NCBI GenBank assembly: GCA_014871385.1
Contig: CM026432.1
Span: forward strand, 3,737,535 to 3,801,534
Length of the DNA stretch: 64,000 nucleotides
Reading direction: 5' to 3'
Origin: Ceratodon purpureus
Lineage: Eukaryota > Streptophyta > Bryopsida > Pseudoditrichales > Ditrichaceae
This document shows, piece by piece, positions 11,001 to 62,500 of the stretch. Made by a program: the position numbers and the translations under genes. Below the pieces are notes generated by a model. It had not been told where the DNA came from, made no database searches, and saw only the letters and a program-made list of their open reading frames with translations. The first letter of the stretch is position 1, and each line of letters opens with the position of its first letter.

Positions 11001-13228
11001 GAAGAGAGTATGGGACGGGGTATCCCATCGACCTCCAGTAAGGTCCAGGCCACCAATAAAGGAGGTCAATCTCCTCGGGCCGGATGGCCCAACAGTGTCA
11101 ACGATTGTAATTTTCTGATGATGCGAGTATAGCGTTCCAACTACCTGCAATTCCAGTCAAATTTCAACAAGCCTCAGTTTTCAATAAAGCTCTACATTAT
11201 ACTCTAATCAGCTTTGTAGATTAAATCGCAAATGTCGTGAGCATACGATCGACAAGCAGTTTACAGTTAGGTTTGAAATGAAGAAATAGATCAAAGCTGA
11301 AGAAGCGACTGAAATTATCATGCCACTACTATTCGTTTAATACCAGTGGGGCGTACCTTTTGCCTGAACCAAGTCGTTTTGTTTGCACCATATCGTGGAG
11401 CAAGGACGCACCTGACTCCTGAATTCTTGAAAAACTTCTTCGTTTCTTCGTCGTGTGTGTTCATAACACCGGCCTAAACAGAGAGGAATATAAGTCAGCA
11501 CTGTCGCACTAAACCTTAAAGAAAAATGGCGTTATTTACCTGACAATTAAGCCCTCCAACACTTCATGCTGAAGTACTCAGCTGAATGAAAACCAACACT
11601 GAAATTCAAGCTTACAAACCACATTTTCAAGTTTATTTTCTGCAATACCGTTTTCACAAACAAGATGTCGTGAGATGTTTTGTCGTCCCAAACCAGCAAC
11701 AGCACGCGAACCCCCTGGCTTGCTTTCTTCTTCAACAACTCCCCCAATGTTAAATTTCCTCCTTCCACCACCGGACGATTTAAATCCCGAACTAACGTAA
11801 TTTTATCAAACACTGACCAGCCTGCTATGTACACCAAGACCTTCGCATCATTGATCGCAGTGCACATCTCTTCCCAGCACCGCGCTTGTACGAAGGACTT
11901 TCCACCATCAAGAGGAATGCTGGGAAGCGTGTCGTCATAAATATGGGCATCCTGATAGAGCGTCAGCCGACATCCCATCCTCAAGGGGAAATAAGTATTC
12001 GGCACTCCATGGGCGTCAATTCCTACACCTTGAGTGTAGATAGGATTCTGCTCAACAGGCATATACCTTGCAGAAAATTGTAGCTGAGCTCCTGCCTTGC
12101 AAGGATTGCCTTGCGAGTTCAACAAAGGAAACCAGCCGTCGACAACGCCTCCATTGAGAACTGATCCCGCTGAGATACTAACCTTGCCAATGAACTGGGA
12201 CCCCATGACATCCTGATCCTTGACTTCCAAAACAATATCACGCACGTGATGTGCAACAGGGATTTGGAAGTGCTCCTTCCACACAGGGTTGACGTTATTA
12301 CTAATCACTCGTGTGCGAGCCACTCTTGCATCACCGAGAACCACCGTTGTGTAAGGGTCACTGGTGATCGTAGTTGGAGCACCCATTCCGGTTGCCTCCT
12401 TCAGTTTAGATGTATATTGGCGAACTTTTTCAGAAAACATGTCCATGTTTGGCAAGTTCACGGCCTGAAAAATTCCAACCTCTAGTGTCCCGTGCAGCAA
12501 GTAGCCGGAATGGGACGCTGGGGGTGCGCTATAAATCTGGATTGCATTCCCGGATGGTACAGGATCCGGTTCAGGCTCATCCGTTATACGACCTGAAAAT
12601 CCATCAAAATTTTATTTGTATAAGCGGAACAAAATCTGTTTCGTGATAAAACAGGATCCTGATTCTATGAAACAAATCACCCGTCCCCAAAGAGACCTAG
12701 ATTGCATTTCGACATTTCCTACTTCGGCTTCTGATGTTACTAATTCAAATGCAGATTTGTAGATAACTCACCTGACCACTGATCTTGAGGTGGATATGGA
12801 GGCTGCCCGGTGGTGTAGGGACCTGTTGGATCAGCAACTTGATGAAATGAATGCCCAGGGCCATAGGGTGAAGGATTTGAAGGGCCTGGTTGGGCACTCG
12901 GGATATATGAAACAGGTTGTGGAGGTGCATATGGCTGATCTGGGTAACGCCCTGATCTAACAGAGCCTCCTGGTGAGTGGCTGAGGTAAGGATTATTCGG
13001 ACCAGGAGAAGAAAGGTTTGGAGCAGCTCCGGCTTTAAAAGAGCCTTCTGGTGAATGACTGACATAGGGATTGTAACCAGCATGGGAAGAAGGGTTTGGA
13101 GAATGCAAAGAAGAATTTACACCAGGAGGTGGAGAAGGGTTTGTAGAGTCTAAGGCGACAGGTTTTGTGGAAGTGAACCATTTGCCCACTCCAAAGAGAC
13201 CTCCATTGCGTTTGGCGTCTCCTGCCAT
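8026..13228 (-). CDS. PLD: Phospholipase D, C2-type, PLDbeta-like
   Basis: Hydrolyses membrane phospholipids to phosphatidic acid; C2-PLDs bind membranes in a calcium-dependent way. Eleven exons in gene order: 13228-12772, 12592-11649, 11473-11357, 11144-10950, 10738-10487, 10193-10125, 9839-9692, 9498-9350, 9197-9024, 8823-8626, 8322-8026; total 3000 nt, 999 aa. Residues 1-150 are rich in Pro, Gly, Ser and Tyr, with an internal repeat ([10 protein letters not shown] and [10 protein letters not shown]). The C2 domain covers about 185-345. Both HKD motifs are intact: H515/K517/D522 in [10 protein letters not shown] and H849/K851/D856 in [17 protein letters not shown] lies between them. The Pro-rich N-terminus points to the beta/gamma type rather than alpha. 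I chose the ATG at 13228; the frame extends slightly upstream but only from a non-ATG codon. All introns are GT-AG. Confidence 0.95.
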
Positions 13229-16105: not shown

Positions 16106-18704
16106 TCATAATGACTCTCCACCTTCCCCCTGTTGCCGAGCTAGGTAATCCCCGCGGCGCTGTTTCTGCAAACCAACAATTCCAAGAGATACTGTTCATA
16201 AAATTGCTGAAGGAGATGAAGTCCCGAAACAGCTTGATCACCAACTCATCATCTCATCAAGCACTCTGGAGCAGTTGACCTCACAATTATGCTCGTTGCA
16301 GCTATCAACCTTGCTTCGAAGTGAGTAAGCTAAGTAATGAAAACCGATATTATCATAGGCCGAGATACTTTAGATACTTCACCAGGTAAAGCTCACTCAC
16401 CCATTCATCAATCACAAGGCCATCCACAACCATGGTGCCCTTAGGGATCGTTTCTGCTGGAGGCTTTTTACGAGCTGCTTCAATTGCATCAGCTTCTGCA
16501 AGACGCTTCTGCAACCTTTCCAATTCCGCCTGCTCCCCAATTTGTCAGCAGAGAGGTCATTAGTTGCACGTTACACGTAATATTACTAATGCTGCCAAAG
16601 AACAGAATTCAAGCGCCCTCAAATACTGATTCTCTTAGTGCAGCTTTCTAAGATCATTGAAATGTTAACACTTTACGCATCATTCTGCTGGTTTCAGCTT
16701 CCAGAATACCGGTGGTTTCACTTTCACGCTACTCTGCTCCATGAGTTGCCCAGAAGAAGAGACCTCGAGCTATGATATGTAAAGAGCTACAAGGTGCAAG
16801 ATCACAATCATAGGAACATTCTTCCAGACCTAAAACGAATAAGCCTGCAATAAAAGCATGTGAGCTGTAGAATAACATTCTGTGTCTTTTAACTGCATAC
16901 ACCAACTTGTACGAAACTGCGGCTGAGGAACACTCACTGGAGACGCTTTCTGTGGATCAATGAACACCACTTCAAGGATGCGCTCGACAGTAACCAACTC
17001 CTTTTGATCCTCAAACTGCAACAAGTAAATAGCAGATAACCAATCAGCAATATCTCAGAAAAACAACCAAGAGCAAGGAAAAAGAGTCAACCTCTGTGCA
17101 GGTAAAAAATCTAGCCCAAAAATTCTTCTTGATAAGTCGGTCAGACTTAAGGGAGGAAAAGGAGACAAACAGAAACTTTATGTCTCTTAATTTTCCAAGT
17201 GAAAATAGGATCCTACCAGTTCTGGAGTATATTCGACTCCTGCCTGCACAGACAAGCTGACAATCTTGAACTTGTCCTTGGGTCTTTTGTCTGTTGGACG
17301 CTCAGGCGGCTCCAAAAATTTCACAACTGCGGTGTCAGTGTTCACCGCGTTAATATCGTAATACCCATGTCCAACATGTATCCATGAATAAGAATTACTC
17401 GTTTCAAGTTACTGTCCTCAGGAATCTAGTCATGACCAAGAATAGTGCACTGCACCTGTTGCAATAGTATTTTCATTTGGTGCGAGCACACCACTAGGTG
17501 GACGCATGAAGCAGCTCTTTGGAGCTGTAGTTTGAAACTGCAACACAATTAACCAAAAACGGATGACTTCTCTTCTCGGTCAGCATGCACCATATAAAAT
17601 AGCATTTTTAGGAACACTATTGTCGCATAATCAGCATGGGCTTCTTACTACACTGATTGCATTAAACACTATGAAACACACGGCCCGAGGCCTCATTTAC
17701 CACGTGGCCAGTCATTGCAGAACATTTAAAAGCCTTGCAACCAGGGTGATCTTTGATGTACAACAACTTTGCATCAGCAGTGTCTACTAAATTCAGTGTA
17801 CCACTGCTGGTTTCGAGAACACTAAGAGCACTTATCTCAAACAGTACCTATTAAACTACCCCATACATCAATACATTTAAGCATACCCTCCCCCAACTGT
17901 AGGTCAACTTAAGTGAAGAAAGGAAAAATCTCCTCACCTTAAAAGCAACATGTGACCGACTAACATTCTTGATTTTAATTGCACTTGAAACTTGCTTTCC
18001 TGGCTCATCTGTAGCACAAGCAAAACCAAAAAAATCAGCAAAAATTTCCACAGAAAACCATAGAAATCCCACACAAAAAACTAGAAACATACCTCCTAAC
18101 CAAAACCAGAATGCCATGCCCCTACCCCATTCGACTACAGCACCCCCATTAAAGCTAGTTCTCTTACCACCAAGTCGAAAACCAGACAAAGATTACGCAA
18201 GCTAAACCTCGAGAATTAATACCATCGTTCCAATTTTCTAGCAAATCGAGCTAGTTCATCGCCAAAGAACCAACACAGCAAAACACTACCCTTAGTCCTC
18301 TAGCAAACATCATCATCCCCAAGCTCAACCAAAAAAAAAAATCTCCCGCAAAGCCGTCGCCCTCAACGGTCCCATCGAAAAACACAGGGAAATTTTTCTT
18401 GACCAACTCAAAGAGCTCAAATCCAAACCCAAACACAGCGTGTCGGCAAAAAACTCGACCAGACACTCCACTTACAAAGGAAGTGCAATTTCTTGTCAGG
18501 GTCGAGACGAAGGCGTCTCCGGCTGATCATGAACGCTCTGGCCAAGGTGGACATGGAGGAGGTGCTGGCCCTGGCATTCTCCTGGCTCTGCAGAAATGCA
18601 CTCCTTTGTATCTCAGCCTGCTTCTGCTGCTCCCATGGCAACCTCAGCTTCCACGCTTGCGGCGACCGCTTCTTCTCCGCTGCCTCCATCTCCTCCGGCG
18701 CCAT
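16106..18704 (-). CDS. Vesicle-associated membrane protein-associated protein (MSP domain, plant VAP4 type)
   Basis: VAP proteins use their MSP domain to hold partners, often through FFAT motifs, at the ER and its contact sites. Seven exons in gene order: 18704-18476, 18008-17938, 17537-17456, 17326-17217, 17015-16938, 16529-16401, 16165-16106; 759 nt, 252 aa, all GT-AG and in frame. The N-terminus (about 1-65) is basic and low in complexity. The MSP domain then runs from LRLDPDKKLHF to IDPQKASP. It contains the VAP signature TTAPKSCFMRPPSG. After it comes a charged, probably helical stretch (AELERLQKRLAEADA). The protein ends at GEGGESL with no C-terminal membrane segment, like the Arabidopsis VAP4-1/4-2/4-3 group and unlike VAP27-1. 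The last coding exon holds only 19 residues. Confidence 0.93.
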
Positions 18705-20279
18705 CCCCTAGTCCTCTCTCTCCCTCCCTCCCTCCCTCCCCCCAAACCCCTCTCACACACAACCACCTCCACAAACCCACACCTTGATCCTCCCCTCCTC
18801 CATCTCCTCTCCTCTACCACCAACCCTCCTCACTCCTCAATCTCCCATTTCCAAATTGTGACATTCCGTACCCATCCTCCCAGCTCTCACCTGTCCACAC
18901 CCACCTGCAAAACAACAACCCAAACCAACACCAAAACCAACAAAACTTAACCAAAAACCAAAACTAAAAACCTCTACTACTCCACCTAGAGAATCATCCC
19001 ATACTTTCTTACACTATCTAGATCCCTGGTGGCCTATTTCCTAGCACTACCTCCACTAGCCTCATGATTCACAGTTAGACTTTCTGTCCCAAAACACACA
19101 CATACACACACATGCACACACTAATATTACACCAACAAATGACATCCCAAACCCAAGCTCCTGCCTTTTAACCATAACTTGAATATGTTACCCTTTTAAG
19201 TTTCAAGCCATCATCACATAAGAACTTAGAAGCACTTCTGAGGACCATTTAAGCAAAGTGGAGTCCATCACTGGCAACAGAAGTCGCCATTTGGAGAAAA
19301 CTGGAAGCAGGTGGAGGAGAAAAATGAGACATGGGAGGACGAAACTTGGAGAATGGTGGCTGTGGGAGTGATGATGATGCTAATAATAAGGTGGAGTATG
19401 TTATCCCCTGGCTATGGCCATGCATTGTTTTTCGAGTTTTTTTGAGTTTTTCGAGCAAAGTTGCATTAACTTGCTCTCAAGGTTGGATGTTGTTGTGTGG
19501 TTTTCGTGATGGTTTTTTTCTATTTATTTTTATGATGTTGAGGTGTTACCTACAGTTAGGTAAATGGTGGAAGGTAAAGTGTTTGATTGACTTGCGGGTG
19601 GGTTAGCCATGGCTGCAAAGGGTTGGGGCTCGAGTTTTTCTGGTCTGCAGGCTCTTTTGTGATGATTTCATCAGCAGGGTGAGACTGTCTGGGGCCATCA
19701 TTGAGGTGGAACTGGGTTTGTGGGGACGCAGAGTCTGTCATTTTGGCTTCCTGGTTGACCTGTAAAAGGCTTCATCTTTGGACTTTTTAAGTTACCAAAC
19801 TTGGATTTTTTTTGGAAAGGGAGGAGTGACTTCGGTGGGTGCGGCTTGATTTTTATGTTACTTTGTATTTTATTTTAGATGAGAGATGGTAGGGGACAAG
19901 TGTTTTGGACTGTCCTTGAGAACGTGTTGTGTCTTGTTTGGATTGAAATGGTGGGCGGTGTAGAAGTTGGAACTGTAACAATTGGGTTTTATAGGCTGTT
20001 GTATGCGTGAGCTAATTTTAATGGCTTTTGTAATGTGTTTTTAGGGTGGAGGATTTGAGCTTATGGAAAAGCATAGAGTTAAATTAAAGTAGAATGCTTG
20101 ATTTATGGAGATTTATGTGATTTAAGTGATAATTGATCATGATTGTAGTATACAAATCATTAGTATTTCCAAGTATGATACTTGGATATGAATTTATTAT
20201 ATTTTTGACATTTTAAAAATAACTAAAAGTAATATGGCATGGAAAAAAACTATATAAGTGAGTTGAAAGGATTCAAATG

Positions 20280-38559: not shown

Positions 38560-41230
38560 ATACTCAACCTATGTTCATTTTATTCACATTTTCCTATAAA
38601 TAGGACCAAAGTTCTTCTAATCTCTCTTTTAATATACAGATTTACATTCTAAAAATAAAAAAACTAATTTGACAAAAAAAATAATTGAGTTATTTGAGTA
38701 TTATGAATCCATGTCCTTTTTGCAATTTTCTTTACAATGCACTACTTCTTTGGAATCTCTAAAATTTCATGTACAAGTAACTAACATCACGTACAACATA
38801 CTAGTACAAAACCGTCAACTTATAAAGTGCAAAATTTGACACAAAGAGGAACCAAAGTATGTTGTTTGAGTACTAGGATTTTAAAAACATTATTTTTTAC
38901 TTCAAACTCTACAATCTTTCAATCTTCATTGCCAAATTTAGTGAGACTTTTTATGCTTGATTGTTTAGTAATCTTAAGCAAGATCTTAGGGTTGGACTTG
39001 CAAAGGAAACCTTTTTTAATTTTTTTTTTCCTTGCTTTAGAATTGAGAAGTTTTAGATTATTTTTGTAGAAAATGGTCAAGGAATTTTTAGAAGTCAGGG
39101 TTTAAGATGACAAGCTTATAGAGCATGACTTGCTCTCAAGAGTCCAAGAACCTTCACTTTTTATACATGTATTTTAGCAAAACAATGGACACATTCTCGT
39201 GGAAAGTTTCGTTGGGCAAAAAATGGTGAATTATGTTTTGGTTGAATGGCTGTCATTTTGGCACCAATACTCTCTAAAAGTGCTACCATGTAAGTACAAT
39301 GGATGCAAGACTTTCGCTTGCAATGTGAATGTCAAAAGGCTGGACTTTGTTAGTTTTCATACTCTAATTGAATGAATTCAATGGCCAATCAATGTTCATT
39401 GTGTGAAGTGGCTCTAAATTCGTTGGTTAGGATGCTAAGAATGAGCTCCAATGCTTATCTTGTCTTTTATTTATTTTTGATGCATACATTGTGAAATCTT
39501 GTAATACAACTTTTAATTTTCTTTTTCTTTCTTAAGTATATGATTCCATCATACATCAAACTTAAAAGTTATGGATTGAGACACTTAAATAAATTACAAT
39601 AGTTTCAAATTTTTTCTTACTTGATATGTTGTAAAGAATGTCTTGAAACTACTTCATGATATATTAAAATGCATGTGCACATAAAGAAAGGCAAAAAATG
39701 ATTCAATCAATCTCATGCTAATATCCATAACATGTCTAGGTGTTCCACCAACGCTTTTAGATTACCTTGAATTGTAAATCTTGTTACTAGAGACAATAAC
39801 TTCAACTATCTTTCCACGAAGATAATGGATATCTATATCAATAATATTATATCAATATTAAAATTAATTTTTTTTATTCAATATTGTCTTATATAATGTC
39901 TTAAAAACACATCAAAATGCATGTCTAAATTTGAGCTTATACAATTTTCACAAAATTTTAGACATTTGAGTGGCTTGAATGGTCTTAATCTTTTAAAGAA
40001 CTAAGTGCTTGCTTGATGGACAACTCAACTTTCAAGGAAATTCTTACAATGTCAAATTTGAATGTGGTTTTATGTAAAATAATTGTAGATAAAGAGAGTT
40101 ATAAGAGGTTTGTACAAATACATATATTTCCACTTGCCTTTTTGAAAAAAGCCTTATTATAATTTAAAGCATTTTTTCTTGATGAAGGACAATTCAAAAA
40201 CTTTTGCCAAATCTATCTATTACCTCTGAAATGTATGAGTCATGTAACTAACATGATTGTTTTTGAAATTGTCAAAGAAACTTCGTCTACCATAGAAGAC
40301 CCCATTCCAGGAAGAGACATAGTTTTCTTTTTGGTGAGGATGTAAATAAAGCTTTTTTTTATTATACATAAGTAGAGATTTGTTTTTTATATTTTAATTT
40401 TCTCCTTGAAGAATAGATATAAACCTTTGTTTTGATAATATTGATTTGTTTCTATAAAAAGCAGTATTAATAATAAATAAAATGTGTTTCTGGCAACAAT
40501 ATGAACTTATGTTCCAATCATATTAATTTTCATAATGCTACATTTTTTGTAATTACTAAAATTTTCTACAACATATATATAATGTGGACCTTATGTGGTG
40601 CAAAATCTTGACACCAAAAGAAGTCAAAGTTTGCTATTCCTATATGAATAAGAAAAAGAAAAACAATTTTGACCTTTGAAATTTATAATCTTCCAATCCG
40701 TGCCTTTAAATTGAATACAAAATTTTCAAGCATGACCTTCTAATGAACTTAGCCAAGATGTTATGTTTAATTAGTGAAGCTCCTTCCAACTTGTTTTGAG
40801 TCATAGTACTATTTTGGATGATTTTTTAGGAATGTAAAATTATTTTTCGAGATGAGAAAAAATTACCAACATTTTGTAAGGTTCAAAACCTACAACTTTA
40901 AGGAGTTAGTGATGGTCTTAACATTGTGTTGCACACTTTTTTTTAAAAATAATTCCAACTTCTTATTTAAATTAATTACAAAAAAGTTAAAAAAAAAATT
41001 AAAAAAAAAAAATTTTTAAAATTGGAATTTTGAAGAAATTTCAAAGAAATATCACTTTAAAGAAATTGAAAAAGATAGAGAATGATTTTTGAACTTTCAG
41101 GCTTATAGATACTTTCTACTAGTCTAGATTTACTAATTATATTTTGAAATGAATATCATTAAAGTTGTGACATATTATAATACATCTAAGTTTGATCATA
41201 TGTCCTTGGTCTTTTAAGTTAAAAATGCAA
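38560..41230. repeat. Dispersed repeat block A (paralogous to block B at 56.3-62.5 kb)
   Basis: A non-coding AT-rich block that aligns by eye with block B over long stretches. Shared landmarks include GTGCAAAATTTGACACAAAG-like motifs (38829 and about 40602 here; about 56815 and 61185 in B), TTTAAGATGACAAG (39100; 59608 in B), GGGCAAAAAATGGTGAAT (39212; about 59710 in B) and CATCTAAGTTTGAT (about 41186; about 62455 in B). The two landmark motifs are 1.77 kb apart here but 4.37 kb apart in block B. Confidence 0.75.
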
Positions 41231-42701: not shown

Positions 42702-44227
42702 CCGATTAGCACATGCGGGGCCGGAAGAGTAGTACCGGTGGCAGATACGAAGCAGATGATCTCCACTTGCAGGGCTTTGAACTACTTGAGAGCTGCTGCA
42801 ATTATCTGACCGTCCCTACCTTGCCTGCAGACGTAGATATCTAAAGTGGAAGCACCAGATCTGTCACTTCTCAAGCCTCATGGCCGGGGTCCGGGGATAT
42901 GGGCAAGAAACTCTAGTAAAGAAATCTAAAAAATCCGGCAGATGTGCAGGGAAAAAAGACGTTGTTCGCACTTGTATTTGGTTTTACATGTTTCTATAAC
43001 AAATTATTATTCATAGGGACTAGTAAGCAAAACTAGGAGGCTACCAAAAACGAAGGAGTCGTGTTGATTTCAGTAATTCCGTGCTTCCACTTCATGACTC
43101 CAAATCACCACCAGTACTGCACCTTGACTCACAAGTTGGTCCTTCCCAGTTGACGATGGTGCTCCTACCATATAATTTACACAGGATAATGAAGACGGCA
43201 AATAATGTCTTCCAGTGTCATCAAGAAGGACGTGGGGATGGACATGATGGGTCTCTGACTCCTGCACTACTGTATCATCTCAACACTATTTGGAGTCCAG
43301 AAAGTCCAGGACTGCAGTTAGAATGGTATTTGATGCCTTACTATGTCCACACGAAGTACATGACGTCCGCATGCTGGGTCTCCAACCCATGCATTGTTAT
43401 CTCAACACTGTTTGTGGGCGAGCGAGTCCAAGAGTCCCACTTTCGGAATAGGAAATGGTATCGTAGTACCTTTCACAGCGATGCCGTCAGACCGGTCAGG
43501 AGCCAGTTTACTGCAGGTGTGCATTTTAGATGGCTTAAATACCTGCTTAGATCAGTTTCTTCCAGTGCAATCCATCTCTCTTTCCATTCAGCTACGCCTG
43601 CCCATTTCTGCGGGAGCCAAATCCTCAATCCCCACTTCAAGCTGTTATGACGCTTGCCTAGGTTATTGCCTCGACAGGAGATCGATTACTGGTTTGTTCC
43701 AGCACTCTGATGTGCAGTCAGCACCTTGGGAGTCAGATCTAGCCCAGCTTTGTCGGATTTTCAAGTGTTGAGTGTCCTCAGGTGGTATGCTTTAATTCCA
43801 GCTTCAGCTATGTGATCCATGCCTATTCGACCCTTTCTTGGACTGAGATTGCCTCCGATTACTGTGCGATGGGCAAGCCTGGGTTTTCTGTTTAAGCTTT
43901 ACAGCAGGTGCTTGTCATTTCTAGTCTCTGTCGGTTGTTGACGAACTAGTGGAAGGTGCTTGACAGTATCGGGCCGGTGTATGTTCTCGTGGTTGGTCGA
44001 ATGTAGTCGTCTCGGGTCATTGCAAACGTCATCTTATCGCAGAAGTCCAGGGGTCGGAGAGCAGATATTGTTTTAGCTAGATCATCATGAGGCGGAGGGT
44101 TCGATACTTTTTCCGGAGGAAGGTTTCCTCTTAAAAAATGTTTCTATAATGTTTTAGATTGATGGTCCTCACGGGGCATGAATAGTATGCATCCGTATAA
44201 CAGTCTGGATTTTGATAAGGACTTGCC

Positions 44228-44413: not shown

Positions 44414-44532
44414 TACTTAATCTATGCGAGGCAGGTGCGTTCTGGCAAAAGAATACATACACTGAGCTTAGGCAACAGTTATAGTTTGGTGCCTTCGGCT
44501 TCGGGCATTAGTTTTCCAGCCTGAGACGCAGA

Positions 44533-47500
44533 ATGGTGCGGTGGCGTGATTTCTTGTTCTGGATCGGTTTTTCGGCATGGAAGGCTCTCTTTGACCGTAT
44601 ATTTACCAAACCTCCCGACTCTCGTGACGAGGGCCATTCAGTCCCTGGGGTTGCGTTGCCCAGCGAGGAGCTTGCAGATGTGGATCAGGAGACTCAAACA
44701 TCTATTGATCCTGAGAGAGGTAGCCTGGCAAATCTTCTGGATAAGATTATGTGGAAAAAGAGTATGAGACTAAAATTTGAAAAGGATGATCGAGTTTCGT
44801 ACCACTTCTATGATGATTCCTCGGAGAAGAGTACTTTTGGCGATCGTGACTCATGCAACGAGATAATGGGTGCCATCGCTGCTTCCACCACCCTTAAAGA
44901 CTTTGAGATCTATTTCAAGAGTTCCAAAGTAGAAACATGTTACACGAAGGGATTAACAGAGGCCTTGAGCTCTAACCGAAGTGTGAAAAAAATCTCATTC
45001 AGGAATGGAGCACCTAACAGGGAAGAAATTGGAACATTTTTGGTGTCTACGATATTGTTGAACAATGAATGCCTGGAAGATGTTGAACTGCTGCATTTCG
45101 TAATGGACAACGAAGGCGCGTCACTACTGAGAACCGCCTTGCATCATAATCGAACCCTCAAACGCATTTACCTTTTTCCTTCTCCTAACAGTACATTGGA
45201 TGACGAAGGATTGAAGATGTTGCTTGAGCCACTTTCGGGAGGCGATGGTTGCAACGATGTCTTGGAGGACTTCACCTTTTATCTCAGAGGATCAAAGTGG
45301 CATAATGGCAGTGTGCACATTGGTAACATGGTCAGAAACAACACCTCCCTCCGCAAAATTTCGATAGGATTGGAGGGTGACTATCATGAGGCTAGACCTA
45401 CAACTGTTTTCTCTAGCATTGGTGAGGCCCTTTGCTTCAACACTCGGCTTTCGCAGCTGCACCTCGATCTTAATGAATTCAGAGATCATGAGATGGATAT
45501 TTTGGATAATTTATTTACATCCTTGGTTCCAGATGCTCAAGGACAGCAATCCAACACCGCCCTCAAATATCTTGGACTTTGGTCGAAAAAGAGGCGGCCT
45601 CTGAAATATGAATCCTTGTTCAGCATGCTACGAAGCAATTCATCCTTGATTGAATTGAATTGTGGTTACAGCATTACTGAAGCAGAAGATGCTGTCCAGC
45701 TCTTGAACTCTTTGAAAGGCAACAAGTGCTTAGAAATACTGAATCTGGGTGCTTGTGATGGAGTACGTGGTCAGCGAGTGTTGGGGACAATTATGGACCT
45801 CCTTCTTGAGAATCACCATTTGAAAGAAATAAAGTTGAATGGAACACCATTGGAAAAGGATGGGAGTGCACAGATCGTGAAGGCAGAGTTGGAGAAGAGG
45901 GCAAAGAATGTTTTGTGGAAAGTGGTGGAAGGCATGGCAACAACAACTCCTACTTCTGGAAGAGTCTTTCTGTGTGGAGAACCGTATGCAGGCAAGTACA
46001 TTTGTTATTCTAGGTTGTTATTTTTAGTTGATTTTGGTCTAAATATAATAACAGTTATAATGGTTTTATTTCCTGAAGTTGATTAGTTTAGAATGCACAA
46101 GAAGTATTTACAAGAAATAGTTTTGAATTTCTTTGTACAAACTTTTTGGATATTGGTCTCTAAGAGATTTATTCATTTTTTAAAAATACACTTTCACATT
46201 TCATATGGACCGATCAAGATTTTTCCATGTGCAAAAAGATTGGAATAGTTCTTCATAGACATACTTTATGTCAGATTTAGCATGTTTATGTAAGAACTTA
46301 ATTTTAATGTAAATTTTTATATCAGGATTATAGAAGACAACAGAATGGACTGTAATGTTGCACTCTTGCTCATTGGATGTGTGAAAGCTCTTAAATATTG
46401 ATTTCTAGTACTTTGTGATTCTTATTTTTAAAAAGGTCAATGATGTAATTTATTTTGGTACTCAAATAATGACATGTTATTGTTTTGATATCTATTTCTA
46501 TTTTGTTGCAGGAAAGACAACATTACGAAAAACAATCATGGAAATTCATTCAGCTTCATTGCAGAAGAAAGGGAAAAAGAGAATGAATAGTTTCAACATT
46601 GTGAAGGGAATCTTCAAAGGGAGTGAGAAAACATATGGTGTTAAAGAGAAGGATGATGAACGCACTCGAGGAATTGAAGTGCATCATATTTCATGTGATG
46701 ATATAGCTATGACAATTTGGGACATGGCTGGACAAGAAGAATATCATGCTTTCCATGATTTGGTAGTTCCTAATCTTTCAGGGGGTGGAAGTTGTTCCTC
46801 ATTCATATTGGTATGTGATCCTCAAACTGATCATAAGCTCAAACAACCAAAAGATGAAGCGGATGTTGAAAAAGAGCTACTATATTGGTTGAGATTCATT
46901 GCTTCAAACACTAGAATCTCAGATTTGTACAAGCCCCATGTGACCATTGTGTTCACACATTTTGATAAGTGGTGCACGGATGATCTATTTTGCCAAAGAA
47001 TCTCAGAGAAAGTTGAAGGTTTGAAGCATCAATTTGAAGGCCTTCTTGAATTTGAAGAGAAAGTATTTCTGATCAACGCCACGTCCAAAGATTCGATCCA
47101 TGATGACAAGTCCAAAGATTCAGTGGAAGACGTGTTTAAAGCTATGGTGAATCATCTAAAAGGTCTGCTTTCAAGGGTGCCCAAAACAATTGAGGCTTGT
47201 GCAAAGTTACAGCAAGTTGTGGCCAAGTGGATTCAAGTGAATCCAAACCAATTGCTATTGAGCTGGGATGCATTTTCCAAAGTATGTTCTCAAATCAAAG
47301 ACCTTGATGATCAGGATGATTCGAATCCCAGAATTGTAGATATGAGGAAACGATTTGCAGCTTTATCTTTGCATGATACAGGACATTTGATGTATTATGA
47401 GGACTACAACATTGTTGTTATGAATCCGCACTTATTGTGTCATGATATTATAGGCGAACTCATTGCTACATGCGCATTGGAGAAGTCCAATTCCGAGTTG

Positions 47501-47976
47501 ATTATCAATGGTTGCATCAAAAAAGTTGATCTCCAAACAATGTTGTCTAAGTTTCCTACAAGTGAGAGACACCAAGTCTCATTAAAAGATGTAGTGCAAA
47601 TTATGTTGAGGCTCAAGCTTTGTTTTTTACAAAGCAAGAATGTTCTCATTATTCCGGCAACACTTCGAGATTACGGAAAGTTGGGTTGGCCATTTGAAAC
47701 AAAAGTTGGAGTTGATTACAAGTACATTGGAAGAAGGTTGACATGCGAGGATACAGCAAGAACACTTTTGAGTCCTGGATTCTTTCCTAGACTACAGGTT
47801 AGTTGTTATACTTTTTAATTTCTATATGTATATTTTTACAACAATAAGTTTGTCATTTCAGAACTTTCAAGAAAAACACAATATTTGATTTTTGAAATTA
47901 GGCGAGGCTTCAAATCTTTCTTGCAAAAAAATGTCTTCTACATCTTATGATACATACTGCACCTTTCTATTGTGCA

Positions 47977-48007
<31 letters not shown>

Positions 48008-49373
48008 GACGCAAATGGTACCCTGTGCACAGGTTTTCCTTCACAAAAAATTTGCGGATGCCTACAAGATCAAGAAGAATCAGATTGAGTTTATTCACAA
48101 TGGAATGGAAGTTATCATAGAATATAGTGATTCCAATGGATTTTTCATTGATATTATGATCCGTTCAAGTAAAATGGAAGACAATATCTTGGACTTTCTT
48201 CATGTACACATTAAAGATGACATCCTCAAGCTCTGTGCAAATCCAACGTTGGGATGTCCTGGAGTCAAGCTTGTTGAGTTCATCATTCGACCATCATGTG
48301 TACAGAATCTGATATCATGCAAGGCCCGGAGAAATCAAGTTGTTTCTGTTGAAAAGCTGAAACAGATGGTATTGGCCAGTGTTAATTTTGAACTACAACA
48401 TACATGGCCTGATGAAAAGTCATTGAAGAGCGGATGTGATGAAGCAACCACTTTACTGGGAGAGAAAGTTTCAGATCATTTGCTTAATCAACTTCGACTT
48501 GAATTGCAAAAGTTGGAAGACCGTTTTAAAAAGAGTGATCCTGAGAAGGACATGAATGATTGTGGAAGCTTTTTGATTGATGTGGAAGATTCCAAGCCCT
48601 TGATTGTGACCAATGAAGTTTTATACCACAACATGAAACGCATGGAAGTTGGCATTCATGAGAGATTTGATAAACTCGATATGAAGATCGATGAGATTAA
48701 ATCTACTCAAGGGAGGTTGTTGCCCAAGATATGTACCAACTTGGATGCTCTGGTGACATTTACAGTGGAGTTCCAGCAACACAAGTATCCACGCCTTCCC
48801 TTCCTAACAAGTCGTGAGAAACAGAGTCTCAAGCGCTCTATAGTCACTCATATGGTACCAGGAATGACAAGCTTTGTTGTTCAGCTCTTTTGTGAGCATA
48901 GAGATGGTTTCCACATTGTCCAAGATCAAAAAGGGTGCGAAGTATCATTTGGCACAGAATCAACAAGAAAGTTTCTGAGTGCGGTAAAGTGGGGGCTCTT
49001 CACTTTCACGGTTCTGGCAAAAGTAGGTGCACAAGTTGGAGCTGGCATGGGTTCAACGATTCCAAACCTTGCTAAAGGCTGGTTGGTTCTAGCAAATATA
49101 CCAGGAACCGTTGGGGCGGATTCTCTCATAATCCCATCTTTACAGGACAAGCCAAATACATCCATTTCAGACTGGGAAGCGAAGGTGGCCCAAGAATGGT
49201 TGATAGAGACTTTGAAAGCAAAGTGCCAAGGCACTGGCGATATCCAGAAAGCATTCCAGCTACGAAAGGTGAAGTATAAGGATAGTGGATCCGTAGCTTG
49301 GATTTGCAATAAGCATGTAAGAGAGTGCAGTGATCACAACACCATAGATTTATTACCGTCGGAGATACTTTAG
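44533..49373 (+). CDS. TORNADO1-like LRR-Roc-COR (ROCO) GTPase
   Basis: ROCO proteins join leucine-rich repeats to a Ras-like Roc GTPase and a COR dimerisation domain. The Arabidopsis member TORNADO1 acts in leaf and vascular patterning. Three exons: 44533-45991, 46512-47797, 48033-49373; 4086 nt, 1361 aa, close to TORNADO1's roughly 1380 aa. LRRs fill about residues 60-440. The P-loop GEPYAGKTT starts at G482 and is split by intron 1, which has a GC donor (AG|GCAAGT). The Roc G3 motif is DMAGQ (D557-Q561); a G4-like THFDK contains D638. COR and the C-terminal region follow, with a glycine-rich hydrophobic stretch near VGAQVGAGMGS. Intron 2's acceptor region carries a poly(T) insertion that duplicates the acceptor; I use the downstream copy (exon start 48033), which keeps frame and avoids a poly-Phe run. 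Function in this organism is inferred. Confidence 0.88.
47971..48037 (-). mobile_element. Micro-retroposon (reverse orientation) inserted at a splice acceptor
   Basis: TGTGCACAGGTTTT occurs at 47971-47984 and at 48024-48037. Between and overlapping them lie a 27-nt T run (47981-48007) and GACGCAAATGGTACCC. Read on the minus strand, this is a short body ending CATTTGCGTC plus poly(A), with a 14-bp target duplication that includes the intron's CAG acceptor. Confidence 0.8.
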
Positions 49374-49607
49374 GTGGTGAGATACACATTGACAACTCAA
49401 AGGTTTGAGTCTCGAAGTGAATAGCTGAACGGTCATAGATAACCATTTCTCTTTTCCTGCTGCACTCCAATTTATGTTTAAGGTAGCAGCAAATACTTCA
49501 AGAAGTTTCGAGAGGAGAATCTGATATGCTTATCCTACTCCCCTCCTGAAAGCTGCCGGACATTGAAGATATCACGGCTTGTGTTGAGGGGCTAAGGTAT
49601 GTGCTAT

Positions 49608-53355: not shown

Positions 53356-56340
53356 CGAGCTTCAGAGCTCCCGGAGTGGGCCAACCGGGTATGTTGCCCC
53401 AACTTTGAGTTGTTTTTGTTACTTATCATAAAATATGCTTATGGACATTTTATAAGAAATTTAACCAATGTTTTGTGTATCATGTTAATAATGTTATTTG
53501 TAAAGTCCGTCAAAACCTGAGTTTTTGACTCGTAATTTGGAAAGGACCGGATCGGCATGATCTCACTGTAGACCAAAATAGAATACTGGATTGATTAAAA
53601 AAATTATTCATAAAAATTTGGAGGGAGGGAGAAGAATTGGGTAGACGTGTGGGACCGTGAGGAGGAGGAGGAATGGTACTAGCTTTGGTCTATGAAAAAG
53701 GGAGGACAAAAGACTGGAGGCCTTTACAAATAACTCAAATATTGACATTTTATAAGAAATTTAATTGATGTTTTATGTTTTATGTTTTATATTAAAAGTA
53801 GAATGTATTTCTAATCTTAAGCTTTTCAAGATTGTGATAATATATAATGTATTGTATGGGTGTGACCAAAGGCTTTAGAAGGACTTTTTTAGGAGATGTA
53901 ATTTCCGGAAGGTATATAAGAGTGTGTAAGGGGGTTTCTATGTCATCGTTTTCTAGTAGGGGGAAGGAATGATTGGAGACGAAATTGAGAAGATGAGGAG
54001 AAGTAAACCTTATTTTAGAATTGGATAAATTTCAATATGTTTGATTTAAGGACTCTAGATCAAGATCATAAATGATTGAGGACTTCATATCATCATCAAA
54101 CTTTGTGCCTTATAAGTTCTTTTAGATTGCTACCTTCTTGCTCATCTTTATATCAATGTAAATTTGAAAATATCTAAACGATAGGCACTCTACAATAATG
54201 GACATGTTGCATCATCAAATAGTTGCAAATCATGGTTGAGGTTTGTTTGTAAGAATGACGATGTTGAAAGTGGTAACTTAATATCAATCAAATACAAAGT
54301 GTTGAGACATGGTGTTCACTGACTATTGTTTGCATCATTCAAATAAGAGGTTGGAGAGTTGTAGTAAGAGTTTTAATCCTGTTGGTGGCCATATTACAAT
54401 CTTGTTGTGGCTGGGGAGAATGTCATGGATTAAGTTATATTGGATCTACACCAAAGAAAGAGAGTGTGTAGTATAGATAATGCTTGCATATGGTTTTATA
54501 GAACATAATAAAGTATTGATTTTCTTTGCACGAGCATGGAATCAAGTTTTCATCAAGGTCTTTGCGGACAATGAACCATAATTACTTTCCACTAGCTTTC
54601 AAAATCCTTGTAACTATCTAAGAGGTGGAATCACTATGTATATTACATGTCAAGAATTTTCTTCATTCAAAATAGTACTGTCATATGTCCAATTACACCA
54701 AATAGTGCATGGAGAACACTAATGCTAGAAGTATAAATTATCCTTTAAAATTCCTTAATTGTTTCTCACCAAAAACATTATAAAATTGTTATTTTTGAAG
54801 CAATGAACAAAAAAACTAAACAACACCTTTCTTTGCATCTTCAACCATAGGATCTTGCATTAAATTACTAAAAACATACATATACAAAATTTCATCGCAC
54901 TCGATGGCACAGATTAGACGGATTGCCTGGACGTCGCCTAGGTATCGGTTTGAAGTTTAAAACATTGTTTTTTACTATCCACTCCAAACATAATGAGCAC
55001 ACTTTGACCTCTCTTTGTGTCACATTTAAACGCTACATAAGACGGGTAATTTCCACTAATATAGTATACATGATATTAGTTTATTGTACACCAAATTTGA
55101 GAGGTTGCAACTAAACGTAGTATTAAAAAAACAATTGTAAAACGAACATAGATTTATGTTAAAGTTGATACTTTTTTTTTGTCAATTTATTATTGAATAC
55201 AATTACGTGTAGTCAAAATAAGGTTTATGTCTACTCTTGAAGTAGAAGAAAAGAAATTAAAAAAAGAACAAAATCTCTACATCTTCTAAGATAAAAGAAA
55301 AACATTTCTTGTGTCTTAACCAAAAATGGTGAGAAAACTTTTATTCTTTATAGAATGAAATTTATCTGTTGTAAAATTTATTTATTTATAATTTTTGGAT
55401 TTTTTTGTGGAAATAATTAAAAAATCCTATTAGTTACTTTTACAAAAAAATCCCAAAGGTAGTTGAGGCATAGAGCAAAAATCTTCAGTTTTTTAAAGAG
55501 TAGATAAAACTACTTTGGGCACCATAACTAATTTTCCAATGTCTAGTGGAGAAAAATTTATATCTTGACAAAGCTCTTGCAATTTCCTACATCTACAACA
55601 AGTTTCAAAAAATCACATTTAAAGTTGACATCAAACATTTTTGCCCAAGATTTCAAAAAGCGGAATTATGGATAAATGCCTTTAAGGGATTAAACTAATT
55701 TTTAGTGTCATCTTCAATATAGTTGGTTAAAGTTGGTACTCGTAAAGATATATGAATTAAGGGACGTTTTTTACTAAGATCAAATTGAAAGCTTAACTGT
55801 CATTAACCCAATTCAAATGAAAACAAGGGTTTAGAAATTTGGACTCAAAAAACACATTAATATATGCATATTTAAGCATTTGACCGGTCATAGTGTGGAA
55901 ATTCTAACGGCAAAGATCCATGAGCCAAATATTTCAGATTTATGGAAATATTTTGATAAAAAGCCTTAAAAATATGTAAAAATGTTTTAGCAAAAGATTT
56001 GTTGTTATGTCAAAGTTGTGAATATTTGAAACTAAGTTTATAATGGACCAACATAGGTCTAGAATCCATGATTTAAAAAGATTAATTAACCTTTAATTGA
56101 TAATGCTTTTCTTTAAATAGTGTTTTGCGATCTTAGGCACGTTCCTTTGGTGTTGATTTTAAATAAAATATTCTAATTTTTTTATGAAATGCAACTTAGA
56201 AAATTCCAATAGCTTTGCATCATATTGCAAGAAAAGATATTTATGGTGCTCGAATTTTTTACAGTTTATACACTAATAGAATAAATTAAAATATTATTGA
56301 TGATGATGTTCAAAGCAATTCTTTTTGACTTGTAAGGTAG
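53356..56340. other. AT-rich intergenic DNA, no gene seen
   Basis: Increasingly AT-rich from 53.4 kb. No open frame has protein character and no complete repeat structure was recognised. Confidence 0.5.
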
Positions 56341-56463: not shown

Positions 56464-56501
<38 letters not shown>

Positions 56502-56509
56502 CGAAAAAT
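56464..56509. repeat. (AT)n microsatellite
   Basis: About 22 uninterrupted AT units within block B. Confidence 0.95.
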
Positions 56510-57560
56510 AATAATTCTAAGAGGAGTCAAAATTTTCATACCCTTTTTGGTCAGGATGCCAAAAAAGAATTCTTTATTATTTAAAAGATAAAGATCTTGT
56601 TATTTTTCTTAATTCTTTTTTTTTACTTCAAACATGGATATAGACCTTTGTAGCGCATGTACGGATTTACATACTATAAAAATCTAGTTAACAAAAAAAT
56701 AAAATGAGCATAAGCAATAATTTAAATCTATATTTCTTTCACAATTGTTTTGACAATGCGTTGCTCCTTTGCAACCTCTACAATCTCATGTACAAAACCT
56801 TTAACTTATGAAGTGCAAAAATTTGACACAAAGAAGAGTCAAAAGTCTATTGTTCAAGTAGGATTGAAAGAATAAAGTTTTTTACTTCAAACTCTTTAAT
56901 CTTCCAATTTGCATGGTCAAATTAGGCCACATGTTTTATGTTTTATGATAATCTAGTAATCCTATGCAAAAATGTAGAGTTGGAAACGCAAAGATAAGAT
57001 ACGTAGAGATCTTAATAGCAATCACAGAAAATTGCTAAGTGAATTAAATAGAAAATGGATTTGTTACCGGCGGTAGTAGAGTGTACTTTTGAAACATGTT
57101 TTGTATTGTGCATGTGTAAAGGTGATTTGGTGCACCCACTTTCTAAAAGAAGGCGGCGGTGGTTTTATATTTTCTTTCTTGGTTTCTATTGATTTTTTTG
57201 GTTCCTTGTTGCAAAGTTTTGGTGGTGGTCTGAAGCCAGGAGGGTCTTGATGAAGATAAAAAATCAAACTTAATAACGTTAGATAATTAAAATTATTGTA
57301 TTCTAAAGATGGTTATGTAATTATATGGTCTTTTTAGAAGGTCTCCACAGAAAGGCATGCCAATGGACGTATTGGTACGTTGGGATGTGTTGAGAAATCC
57401 GCTGCAAGCTAACTCTTAGCTTGCGGAATTGAGGCGTGTTTTAAAATACAGCTTTTTTCTTAATAGCTTTGAGAGTGTAGCCTCATTACAGTGTTTTTTA
57501 TTTATATTCAAATGTTTTTATAAATTTATTATTAATTCTTTTTGTTATTTTTTTTTACAG

Positions 57561-58989
57561 ATCATGGCAAAAAATCGTAGGGGTATACGAAAGAAATCCA
57601 TTGGATCATCTCTCAAAATGTCTGCCTTGCGATGTAACCATCTCTTTGGACCCCCGTGTTGTTGATGAGCAATTTGATGGGAAAATACATTGACGGTTAG
57701 AAGAAGTCTTTCTGTACTTGGCTTATTTTATAAAACATGAGATTATGTTTATAGAGAACCGCAAGGCTATGCACTGTGCTCTGTGCAACGAATCTAACAT
57801 TCTCATGTCACTGAACCGATTGGAAGCTCATTCACAGAAGAAACATTATGGCGCAATATGGAAGACAACTGATAATCTGAAGTTTGATTCCTTATACAAG
57901 AGTGAGGATGATTTAAAAGTCGCTTTTGCTACTCATTTAAATCGATTTAAGGTATATTGGAATTGTAAATATGATTTTGAACACGTGGCATCAGAATTTA
58001 AGCAGTTACAGAGGCATGTTTGTATTAAAGAAAAAGGGGTTAATAGAAAAAGAGATTAATAGAAATATTTTATTAATCATTGTGAACGATCATTTTTCTT
58101 GAGAGGATATTACATTTATGAAAAAGGAAGCATCTTTTCTTGAACGATATGGAAAAGTTATGAAAATGAGAGATCTGAAAGATTGTACGAGAATGGTGAT
58201 TTATAGATGTCGTTACGCTCGTCGACATCTTGGGTGGTAAGTATTAAATTTCTTTTAAATTTTTTAAAGTGGAAGTGTTTGTTATATAAATATTTATTAA
58301 TTTTATTTATATTTTTTTCAGGTATATACATCCAAATCTACATTGTCACGAGCGTTCCAAGAACTTGGATACATTTATTTATAAGCGGTTAAAGAAACTT
58401 TTTCCACTTGTTTTAACTCACTTGACAAAAATTCAAGAAATGGAAAACATGCCTCTACATGTTGGATGTTTAGGTGAAACTTCATTTACAAGAATGTTTA
58501 TCACAAAGAATTATAAGAGTAATCCTCATCGAGACTTAGATGATTACAGTTACTAACTTCTTTGTTTGGCTTGGTCAAAATGGTAAAAATATTTATTTTG
58601 ATTTGTTCTAACTTTAATTTTATGTGAATGTACTTTGTACATTTCAATATTATTTTTATATACTAACATGGTAATATTCTTTTCTTGTAGGTTCTTCTGA
58701 TAACCTTGGACAATACACCAGAATCTGTTTTCTAGCATTTCACTTCGGTAACCAGATAAGTTACTTTTTGAAGCCCTACGTTGATGACATCCTTTGTTTC
58801 AAATCTTCACAAATTGAGCATTGTACGAGGTCTATAAGTGAAAAAGATCAATTTGGTATTGTCCTTTATCAGAAGATTTTATTTTATCGATGGTATAATA
58901 GGGTTCAGGAGCAATTTGAAGACAAAGGCTATGACAAACTAGCAGCCGATTGGATAGCTAGTAGTAGCCGTTCCTTCGCACGACATTAG
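57561..58989 (+). pseudogene. Broken TET/JBP-like 2-oxoglutarate/Fe(II) oxygenase with C2H2-like finger
   Basis: Coding pieces of one protein. 57564 starts MAKNRRGIRKKS just after an acceptor-like TTTTTTACAG. 57718-58059 contains a C2H2-like finger (CALCNE...EAHSQKKH). Further pieces run to a stop at 58987-58989. The C-terminal part carries FTRMFITKNYKSNPHRDLDD, whose HRD fits the HxD iron motif, then FFVWLGQNGSSDN and LCFKSSQIEHCTRS, whose His and Arg fit the distal iron ligand and the 2-oxoglutarate contact. TET/JBP enzymes oxidise 5-methylpyrimidines in DNA; that function is family knowledge and the assignment is mine. Two introns are still readable (58237-58321, 58583-58690; GT-AG, frame-compatible), so it is not a processed copy. 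Stops and frameshifts (for example after YSY near 58555, and near 57660-57720) make it non-functional. Confidence 0.65.
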
Positions 58990-59167
58990 TGACTTTTATT
59001 TTCATTTTGATACTTATGTTATATATTTTAATATAATTATTTTATATTGGATTTTGTAATGCTCCAAAATTTCCATTTACTTGGTGCAAACTATTAATTT
59101 GAAACCGTTAACTTTAAATACAATGTATCATTCATGAAACCACATAATCATAAGAGGCGAAAAGGAT

Positions 59168-59250
59168 TATAAAGGTGTCTAAAAAGCATATAAAAGGTGT
59201 ATAAAAAGCGTACAAAAAGTGTATAAAAGATATATCAAAGGTGTATAAAG
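59168..59250. repeat. Short imperfect tandem repeat (GTGTATAAAA-like)
   Basis: About seven units of 11-14 bp resembling GTGTATAAAAAG, located downstream of the oxygenase relic inside the sequence missing from block A. Confidence 0.75.
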
Positions 59251-61850
59251 AAAGTAAAAAGACATCTTCTTGTAGATAATTTTCTTTATCTTTATGAACG
59301 TTTCTTAATCATTATGTTTTTTTTTTTTTTTTTTTTTCCATTGTCTTTTTTTTTTCTTTAATTAGCTTAATATTTGTAATTTTTCAAGTTTTTATTTAAT
59401 CCTTATATGATCTAGTCACCATTACATTTTGCCACCGCGGCATATTTCTATTTCACAGGAAGTCGCACTATAACCAGCGGCCATTTTAAAGTGAAATGGC
59501 CATTATAACGTTTATTGTGATTTAACTCTTTTGTGGTTTTTTGCTTTTTTGCTTTGGAGAGTTTTTGGTAGGAAATTGTATAGGAATTTTAAGGATTAGG
59601 ATTTAAGATGACAAGGCATGGTAAGCATGATATGCCCTTTATAATTCTTGAACCATGTTAGTTGTGCATAATATGTTTTTTTGAAAATAGTCCTATTCTT
59701 GCTGAAAGTTTGAATGGGCAAAAAACGGTGAATCATTTTTTGCCCACTCAAACTTTGGCCACTAGTGAGAATGTCAAGAGGTTAGATTTTGCAAGTTTTG
59801 TTATCTGATAGGTGGAATTCAATGGTCATTCAATCTGAGGTCATTGTGCAAAGCAGCCCTAAGCTTATTGGTTTATTAGGATGCAAAGAAAGAACCTCAA
59901 TGCTTGTCTTGTCTTTTATTCTTCTTTAATGTAATGCATCGTGAAATCGTGTAGTATAAGCCTTTAATTTGATAATTCTTTATTAAGTGTGTGATTTCAT
60001 CATACATTCAAAGTCATGGATTAAGACACTTTAGTAGATTAAAATAATTTTCAAATTGTGTCTTGCTCTGTGTGTTGCAATGAATGTCTTAAAACTACTT
60101 CATAATATGTTAAAACAAATGTCTACATGAAGAGAGGCAAAACAAGATTATACTAATTAAAAAATAATAATCATTGTACTCCTAGATGTACCACAAAGCT
60201 CTTGAATTACTTCAAATTGAGAATCTTGTGATTATAATCAATGACCTTAATCATCCATCTTTCTGCTCTAATGCAAGGCGTAGATAATAAAATTATCTAC
60301 ACAATTAATTTGAAATGAATGGTGAATACAATACTTGGATCATAAAACTTGTTAATAAAAAATTTATATATTATGATATTACAAAATTATAAGTTTTCAA
60401 TAATAAAAAATATATATATAAAACTGTGTCTAAAATCAATGTCTTAAAATATATCTTATTCACCATCTTAGAACTTGTCAAAATGCTTATATGAATTTGA
60501 TTTGTTATAGTTCAAACAAAAATTCAAGACAATCCAGTGCCTTGAATGATGTCTTAATCATCAAACAATCAAGTATCTTCCTAAAGTAAAAATAGAATTT
60601 CAAACAAGTTTCTACAATGTCACTTTTGAATGTGGTGTTTGAAAAATATTTGTGGACATATGAAATTATAAGAGGTTGGTGCAAAATTTACATATTTTTT
60701 CACTTGGATTCTTGAAAAACAATTATGTTCTTTTAAAAAGTTATATTTTTTTAACTTTTAAATTCTAAAACTTTTGCCAAACCCATCTACTACCTTTCCA
60801 ATGCATTATTGAAGTGCCATATCATGATTGCTTTTGAAGTTGTCAAAGAAAGCTGATTTACAAGGAAAGAACTCCATTCTATAATCTATAGAGAGACATA
60901 GTTTTTTTTTGGTTAGATGTAAAAAATGTTTTTAGATATTGGATAAAAATTGATCTCTTTCTCTTTCAAATTTATACTTAGAAAATAGTTATAAAATTTA
61001 TTTGGTATTTATAAGAAGCAAATTTTAAAAATGAATTAAAATGTATTTTGGCAATATTATGCTCTCATGTGCTATTCAAATTTACTTTTACATTGCTAAA
61101 ATCCTTTGTAACTTCTAAAATTTGGTATAAAAATGCTAATATCATAGACATCAATATTTATCTAAGATTTAGATCATATCTAGTGCAAAAATTTGACACT
61201 AAAGGAAGTCAAAGTTTAATGATTCTATATGAGTAGGGAAAAAAAATAAAAAATAAAAAATAAAAAATAAAAAAATAATAATATTTACTTCAGACTCTAT
61301 GATTTTCCAAATTGTGCCTTTAAATTTAATTTAGATTTTAGCCATGATCTTCTAGTCATTTTAATGACCATATTTGTTACTCTGAGACAATTTTCAAATT
61401 TTGAGGCTTTATATAATTTCAGCAATTATTTTGAGAAAATTCTCATGTTTTTTCAAAATTTCTATTTGTAAATAATCGATATAATTTATTTATAAATATA
61501 GGATTGATCAATGAAAAATCAAAAATCAAGCATTAAATTAAAACTACAAAAAGTCTCAATTTAACAAATATGGCGTCTTTACAAAAATCCTATGCTTAAC
61601 CCTGGAGTTCCTTCCTACTTATTTTAAATAGTAGCATCGTTCTTGAAGACTTTTTAGGTGTCAGAAAATACTTTTTTTCTAAATTTTTCTTTAGAAATAA
61701 TAATTATTAGAGCATATACTTTTGGAATGAACTATTTTCAAAAAATGATCAAAACATTCAAACTCTGATTATATTGAAATCAAATAAATCAGCTGACATT
61801 TTTGCACTCGTAAAAAACTTAGTACTTCAAGAAACTAGTGATGTTCTAAA

Positions 61851-62198
61851 AGGCACCATGACCGTGGTGTAGTGGTTTGAATCATGGTACACCGTTGAGG
61901 TGGTCGTGGGTTCGAATCCCTATGCCGTCGTGGTGATTACTACAATAGTCCGCCCACCTATGGTGGGAGGTCTTGAGACCTCGTCGCATGGGTACCCCAA
62001 AAGACCTTGGGGGGATGACATGTCGGTTGTCTTCAAGGCACTTAGTGTAGAGGCACTTAGTGTAGAAAAGTCTTTATCTTCGAAAGGGGGGAGTAGCTCT
62101 AGATTCATTATCCTTAGTCCAGAGGCTAGCGGATTAGTGGATAGAACGAACAAACACTACATTCACGTTGGCCCCTTTGGAGCCGGAGTTCTTCTTCT
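61851..62198 (+). mobile_element. tRNA-derived SINE with 12-bp target-site duplication
   Basis: The 348-bp element begins with a tRNA-like head: A-box-like TGGTGTAGTGG (about 61865) and an exact B-box GGTTCGAATCC (about 61909), the internal Pol III promoter. The body contains a perfect 14-bp tandem (GCACTTAGTGTAGA twice, near 62039-62068), and the element ends in a short CTT-rich tail. TGATGTTCTAAA flanks it at 61839-61850 and 62199-62210. The structure is complete, so the insertion is fairly young. The open frame crossing it has no protein meaning. Confidence 0.9.
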
Positions 62199-62500
62199 TG
62201 ATGTTCTAAATATCATGTTGCACAATTTTTGTAGTTGTAACTTAAAAATTCAATCAATCAAAAATAGAATCCTAAATATGATAATTGGAATCATAATGAA
62301 TTTTCCAAAAGAAATTAGACTTGTAAAATTTTAATAAGGAATAAATATGATTTCTGAACCTTCAACATCATAGATAATTTCTACTCTTTCCAATTCACTC
62401 ATTCATATTGAAATTAAATTTCATTGGAATTGGAAAATTTATATATTATAACATATCTAAGTTTGATAATACGTCCTTGGTCCTTCAGGAATGCTATCTT

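Follow-up and report, generated by a model that had tools for sequence, protein, structure and literature searches.

A decayed zinc-finger gene with a possible Tet-like dioxygenase domain inserted into an older repeat of Ceratodon purpureus

Results and Discussion

A decayed, intron-bearing gene (positions 57561-58989, forward strand) was identified in a stretch of 64,000 nucleotides of the Ceratodon purpureus genome (C12:3737535-3801534; hereafter the window), and a C2H2-like finger and a probable Tet-like 2OG-Fe(II) oxygenase can be read in it. The chances that this inserted gene encoded a zinc finger together with a distant Tet-like 2OG-Fe(II) dioxygenase acting on methylated DNA appear to us about evenly balanced on the sequence evidence, and this is the leading reading among those considered below. 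More broadly, we tentatively propose that Tet-like dioxygenases have been part of DNA transposons in plants, as they are in fungi. Two cases would represent them here, a Harbinger-like relic on contig C11 and the separate inserted zinc-finger/Tet-like gene of the window, and their enzymes would perhaps have recognised and oxidised methylated transposon DNA.

Structure of the decayed gene

The gene was read from the letters of the window, and all of its parts are on the forward strand. The start codon ATG (57564-57566) is located directly 3' of a TTTACAG acceptor. The N-terminal piece (57589-57690), an open frame without a Pfam match, is followed by a TGA codon (57691-57693) and then by an open piece of 121 codons (57694-58056), which as a whole had no Pfam match either. 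The latter piece holds the C2H2-like finger, which can be recognized in the translation as C-x2-C-x14-H-x4-H (CALCNESNILMSLNRLEAHSQKKH, 57775-57846). The zf-C2H2_12 profile (PF18658) matched the region of the finger (57754-57885) with an E-value of 0.045 and a score of 13.9 bits, the cut-off being 27.3. A 16-bp tandem duplication is present within the coding part (58024-58065).

The downstream half of the gene consists of a coding piece 5' of the first intron (58103-58236), intron 1 of 85 nt (58237-58321, GTAAGT..TTTCAG), an exon with the motif HRDLDD (58322-58582), intron 2 of 108 nt (58583-58690, GTAAAA..TTGTAG) and the last exon (58691-58989), which contains the motif EHC, ends with the stop codon TAG (58987-58989) and, when analyzed alone, gave no Pfam match. 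The HRDLDD motif (58527-58544) offers His 58527 and Asp 58533 as candidate iron ligands, and the distal His is that of EHC (58819-58821). The HxD motif, the distal EHC segment, the C2H2-like finger and the two introns of the original prediction were therefore all found in place. In addition to the TGA codon, the lesions of the gene include stops at 58057 and 58100, and the reading frame is inferred to shift twice, near 57567-57600 and near 58545-58549. Because the introns are present, an origin of the gene as a processed copy is argued against.

Insertion of the gene into an older repeat

The gene is carried by an inserted segment of ~2.5 kb (57000-59530), whose flanks are colinear with repeat copies that do not contain the insert. 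In one such copy (38703-41214, forward strand), positions 39005 and 39061 correspond to positions 56993 and 59563 of the gene-bearing copy; the sequence 56790-56993 can be aligned with 38804-39005, and parts of 59563-61246 are colinear with parts of 39061-40661, with identities of 67-74%. Because the flanks are colinear with the 38703-41214 copy, ~2.5 kb of the gene-bearing copy can be regarded as extra. A second copy without the insert, partial and inverted (54747-55157, reverse strand), crosses the insertion point; it is 66% like the 38703-41214 copy and ends at most ~80 bp past the insertion point. The insertion into the repeat is thus clear, with edges that are uncertain: the left one lies within 56994 to ~57065, as weak similarity could extend the left flank as far as ~57065, and the right one lies between ~59515 and 59563. 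Further members of this old AT-rich repeat family are found at 55084-55390 / 56483-56795 (inverted) and at 59563-62485, the copies being ~66-74% alike.

The repeat family is depleted in CpG, with observed/expected ratios of 0.23-0.59, whereas the insert contains 51 CpG dinucleotides against 59.6 expected (ratio 0.86). Of the sequences used for comparison, the left flank has a ratio of 0.59, the right flank one of 0.40 and the insert-free copy at 38.7-41.2 kb one of 0.23, and the insert differs from these three pooled sequences with a binomial p of 8e-5. On the left side this contrast is slight, with ratios of 0.63-0.66 in adjoining 600-bp windows outside the insert; on the right side, one window (61600-62199) rises to 0.71. 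Judging from its CpG content, the insert could be of more recent origin than the host repeat, or it was less methylated.

The original prediction had placed the gene in transposon DNA. The gene does lie inside repeats, but its carriage by a transposon is unproven: no transposase was found by Pfam in 67 open reading frames (ORFs) of the window (10 families returned), in the pieces of the relic or in two further ORFs of the insert (57420-57662 and 58556-58798), which had no Pfam match at all. Likewise, the best scores for terminal repeats between the insert ends fell inside the range of shuffled scores, and no target duplication above chance was detected at the insert. One pair of ends, picked out by eye, was dropped, as its scores were no better than those of shuffles. 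A CpG-bearing patch (59436-59510) with the short palindrome GGCCATTTTAAAGTGAAATGGCC lies close to the right-hand insert edge; it is a possible element end, and no partner was found for it.

Profile searches and the oxygenase family

A TET/JBP-like family had been proposed in the original prediction, together with a profile search as a means of checking it. In our Pfam scans of the relic, the Tet-like family PF20515 was the sole oxygenase family returned. It was obtained with four of nine hand-typed HxD-bearing queries, of which eight were joined across a break and one was contiguous, with E-values of 0.062, 0.14, 0.091 and 0.27, and it was absent from the other five. The matched stretch includes the HxD motif, and all of the matches are below the cut-off (best score 13.7 bits, cut-off 27). 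None of five raw pieces of the relic, including 58323-58553, gave an oxygenase match in Pfam, and the reversed joined protein, used as a control, returned zero Pfam families. According to an ungapped count from the right end of the four matches, the His of the relic falls on position 136 or 137 of the PF20515 profile, and the His of the HMD motif in the C11 relic described below counts to position 136; these positions are counts and not printed alignments, and another placement of gaps could give values as low as 130.

A better, non-oxygenase match was obtained upstream. The Imm33-like family PF24719 was returned by all four queries spanning intron 1 (E-values of 1.2e-4 to 8.5e-4), none of which returned PF20515. 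The match (58103-58470) covers the exons upstream of the HxD motif and partly overlaps the PF20515 stretch; with a best score of 22.3 bits against a cut-off of 27 it is also below its threshold, although its best E-value (1.2e-4) outperforms that of PF20515 (0.062). The proposed family was thus the only oxygenase family to appear, but with sub-threshold scores, a better Imm33-like match and, as described in the next section, a Gln in the Arg slot.

Other searches provided the following results. No TET protein was found in the PDB by sequence; one search gave only RNA-binding protein 45 (best E 0.12), and for another a subunit of complex I (E 0.3) was the sole match. For the last exon alone, modelled without an alignment, AlphaFold2 predicted a helical structure of low confidence (pLDDT 45.7). 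In NCBIfam, the sole matches were FliZ (E 0.08) and IncM (E 0.0048), neither of which came close to the cut-off; phage records and PHROGs contained no match to the relic, and Rfam (at gathering thresholds) and a tRNA scan gave nothing. When IMG/VR was searched for relatives of both halves of the gene, 9 and 2 pattern matches and 0 relatives were obtained. The pattern NPHRDxDD was present in four stretches in the IMG/VR scan, two of them one and the same protein, and in tblastn the relic matched these four stretches with nothing better than E 0.21, the match being confined to the motif itself. By itself, this pattern is therefore uninformative.

Comparison of the active-site residues with TET/JBP enzymes

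In the joined protein, the distance from the HxD motif to the distal His, both identified by motif only, is 62 residues, a count that includes one frameshift placeholder. The position of the 2OG-binding Arg, at distal His +10, is occupied in this relic copy by Gln (58849-58851). At the positions of base contact, the relic has Asp at H+5, Tyr at Arg slot +6 (58867-58869) and Lys at Arg slot +8 (58873-58875), the Lys replacing His or Arg. In the available part of PMC7854593, HsTET2, NgTET1 and CMD1 have Tyr or Phe at Arg +6 and His or Arg at +8, and for CMD1, the only one of these enzymes for which this part gives the number of the ligand His, His345 is followed by Asp350 at H+5 and by the distal His 52 residues on. 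The relic therefore resembles CMD1, NgTET1 and HsTET2 in the HxD motif, the aromatic residue at +6 and the basic residue at +8, and CMD1 also in the Asp at H+5. It differs from CMD1 in the spacing of the distal His (62 residues versus 52), and the solved structures gave no sequence match. Asp at H+5 is not universal, because CcTET has Gly at this position (PMC12730594, available part). No counterpart of the second TET Arg (R224 of NgTET1, R1261 of HsTET2) was identified in the relic. Judged by these residues and by the profile scores, the relic resembles TET-like enzymes, but it falls below the profile cut-off and lacks the Arg.

The pattern H.D..[DN] with a distal H, an aromatic and a basic residue, the Arg slot being left free, arose in 0.52% of cases when the joined relic protein was shuffled 20,000 times, and the iron ligands alone in 3.2%; these figures are guides rather than tests, because the patterns were drawn up only after the sequence of the relic had been read. 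The iron-site pattern in which the Arg is required is missing from the joined protein.

A Tet-like relic beside a transposase relic in the same genome

The whole genome (362 Mb, 151 contigs) was searched with the PF20515 profile (10 candidates scored), and the cut-off was exceeded at one place, C11:13521436-13521742. The locus of the window gene was not among the matches, and there was no PF20515 match in 14 control genomes. The C11 locus (L007:3531-4713 in C11:13517000-13526500, reverse strand) contains a PF20515 relic followed by a DDE_Tnp_4 relic. One piece of the former, with GGEF...WHGKPDYH, matched PF20515 with an E-value of 2e-10, and another piece further upstream, with SHMDKDYD, matched it with 9.2e-8; both are over the cut-off. 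The DDE_Tnp_4 relic, which we take to represent a PIF/Harbinger-type transposase, follows ~0.6 kb downstream in the same orientation and also exceeds the cut-off (E 5.7e-6); two more pieces nearby had no transposase match. From these profile matches, a Tet-like dioxygenase beside a transposase in this genome looks real, and the pair is stronger support for the general idea than the window gene.

Like the window gene, the C11 relic is decayed and AT-rich, and has an HxD motif (HMD in C11) and a distal His (YH in C11). It differs from the window gene in its canonical PF20515 match over the cut-off and in its vicinity to DDE_Tnp_4. The alignment of the two was not significant, its score being reached by shuffles in 127 of 1,000 cases (local) and in 569 of 1,000 cases (end-free), and the two therefore need not share a family.

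Alternative explanations

It is rather unlikely that the zinc finger was joined to a 2OG-Fe(II) oxygenase from outside the TET/JBP group, such as a hydroxylase of proteins or small molecules. The PF20515 matches are weak, and the HxD..H arrangement of the iron site is common to the whole 2OG-Fe(II) superfamily (PMC7854593, available part), both of which agree with such an enzyme; however, no other 2OG family was returned by the Pfam scans of the relic, and the Asp at H+5 and the two residues downstream of the Arg slot (Tyr and Lys) follow the base-contact positions of TET/CMD1. If the decayed gene is real but encoded an unrelated plant or transposon protein, which might have had an Imm33-like fold, instead of an oxygenase, the HRD and EHC motifs would be coincidental. 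The PF24719 match over the junction of intron 1, obtained with every spanning query, argues for this reading, as do the Gln in the Arg slot, the raw pieces without a match and the presence of NPHRDxDD in unrelated stretches. This explanation also seems improbable to us, given that the Imm33-like match is below the cut-off and upstream of the HxD motif, and that the two-part iron-site pattern is rare in shuffles.

Chance open frames, or an ordinary duplicate of a host gene in repeats, unconnected to mobile DNA, would agree with an insert in which neither a transposase nor terminal repeats nor a target duplication were detected. The three longest open frames of the insert have 121, 104 and 88 codons (313 codons in sum), whereas, of 3,000 Markov-simulated sequences with the composition of the insert, 1.9% reached a frame of 121 codons and 0.27% a sum of 313 codons; as the insertion into the repeat is also clear, we consider this explanation very improbable.

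Proposed mechanism and relation to known systems

According to the leading reading, that of a zinc finger with a Tet-like dioxygenase, a segment of ~2.5 kb with one multi-exon gene would have entered an older AT-rich repeat of the plant genome and then decayed. The N-terminal C2H2-like finger would have bound DNA, and the intact oxygenase domain, with iron and 2-oxoglutarate, would have oxidised a methylated base in it. By analogy with fungi (PMC12730594, available part), such oxidation could plausibly have relaxed the silencing imposed on the mobile DNA in which the gene resided.

DNA transposons with TET/JBP genes, of the types PU, AG and PE, have already been described in fungi, as have Harbinger elements carrying TET, and the counter-silencing role of TET/JBP in fungal transposons is a proposal (PMC12730594, available part). 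The window gene shares with these genes the HxD motif and the distal His, a mobile or repetitive setting and a weak PF20515 similarity. It differs from them in its plant host, the insert without a transposase, the profile score below the cut-off and the Gln in the Arg slot; the finger encoded ahead of the putative oxygenase part may be a further difference. Among the matches listed in the open-licence literature, no Tet-like gene in a transposon of a land plant was found.

In plants, 5-methylcytosine is removed by glycosylases of the ROS1 type (PMC11065753, available part). If the proposal is correct, mobile DNA in a plant would have possessed its own Tet-like oxygenase and with it a means of counteracting silencing such as has been proposed for transposons of fungi (PMC12730594, available part), oxidised methylcytosine would be predicted at such elements, and Tet-like oxidation would have occurred in a lineage thought to demethylate by glycosylases only. 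The C11 relic keeps this idea testable, whatever the window gene proves to be.

Other open reading frames of the window

The main Pfam scan covered 67 of 80 ORFs, with a size of at least 95 aa, or at least 78 aa from position 50000 on. The other 13 comprise an ORF with the C2 domain of phospholipase D (PLD), which was scanned separately, seven overlapping frames that were left out (12748-13116, 18403-18708, 18420-18707, 43364-43768, 45733-46017, 48929-49333 and 49129-49497) and five ORFs in the insert. Apart from the two insert ORFs without a match mentioned above, 57694-58056 was scanned separately as a whole, and 58290-58553 and 58675-58986 were scanned in parts. The Pfam families found elsewhere in the window include Roc/COR, MCM-binding and PLD; PLD of the alpha 1 type is a marker of plants. 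Flanked by two long ORFs without a Pfam match at E 0.01 (44512-46083 and 47889-49370), the ORF 46409-47815 (forward strand) matched Roc (E 2.4e-5) and COR-A (E 2.5e-5), both below the cut-offs. The C2-domain ORF matched phospholipase D alpha 1 (6kz8) with an E-value of 2e-69.
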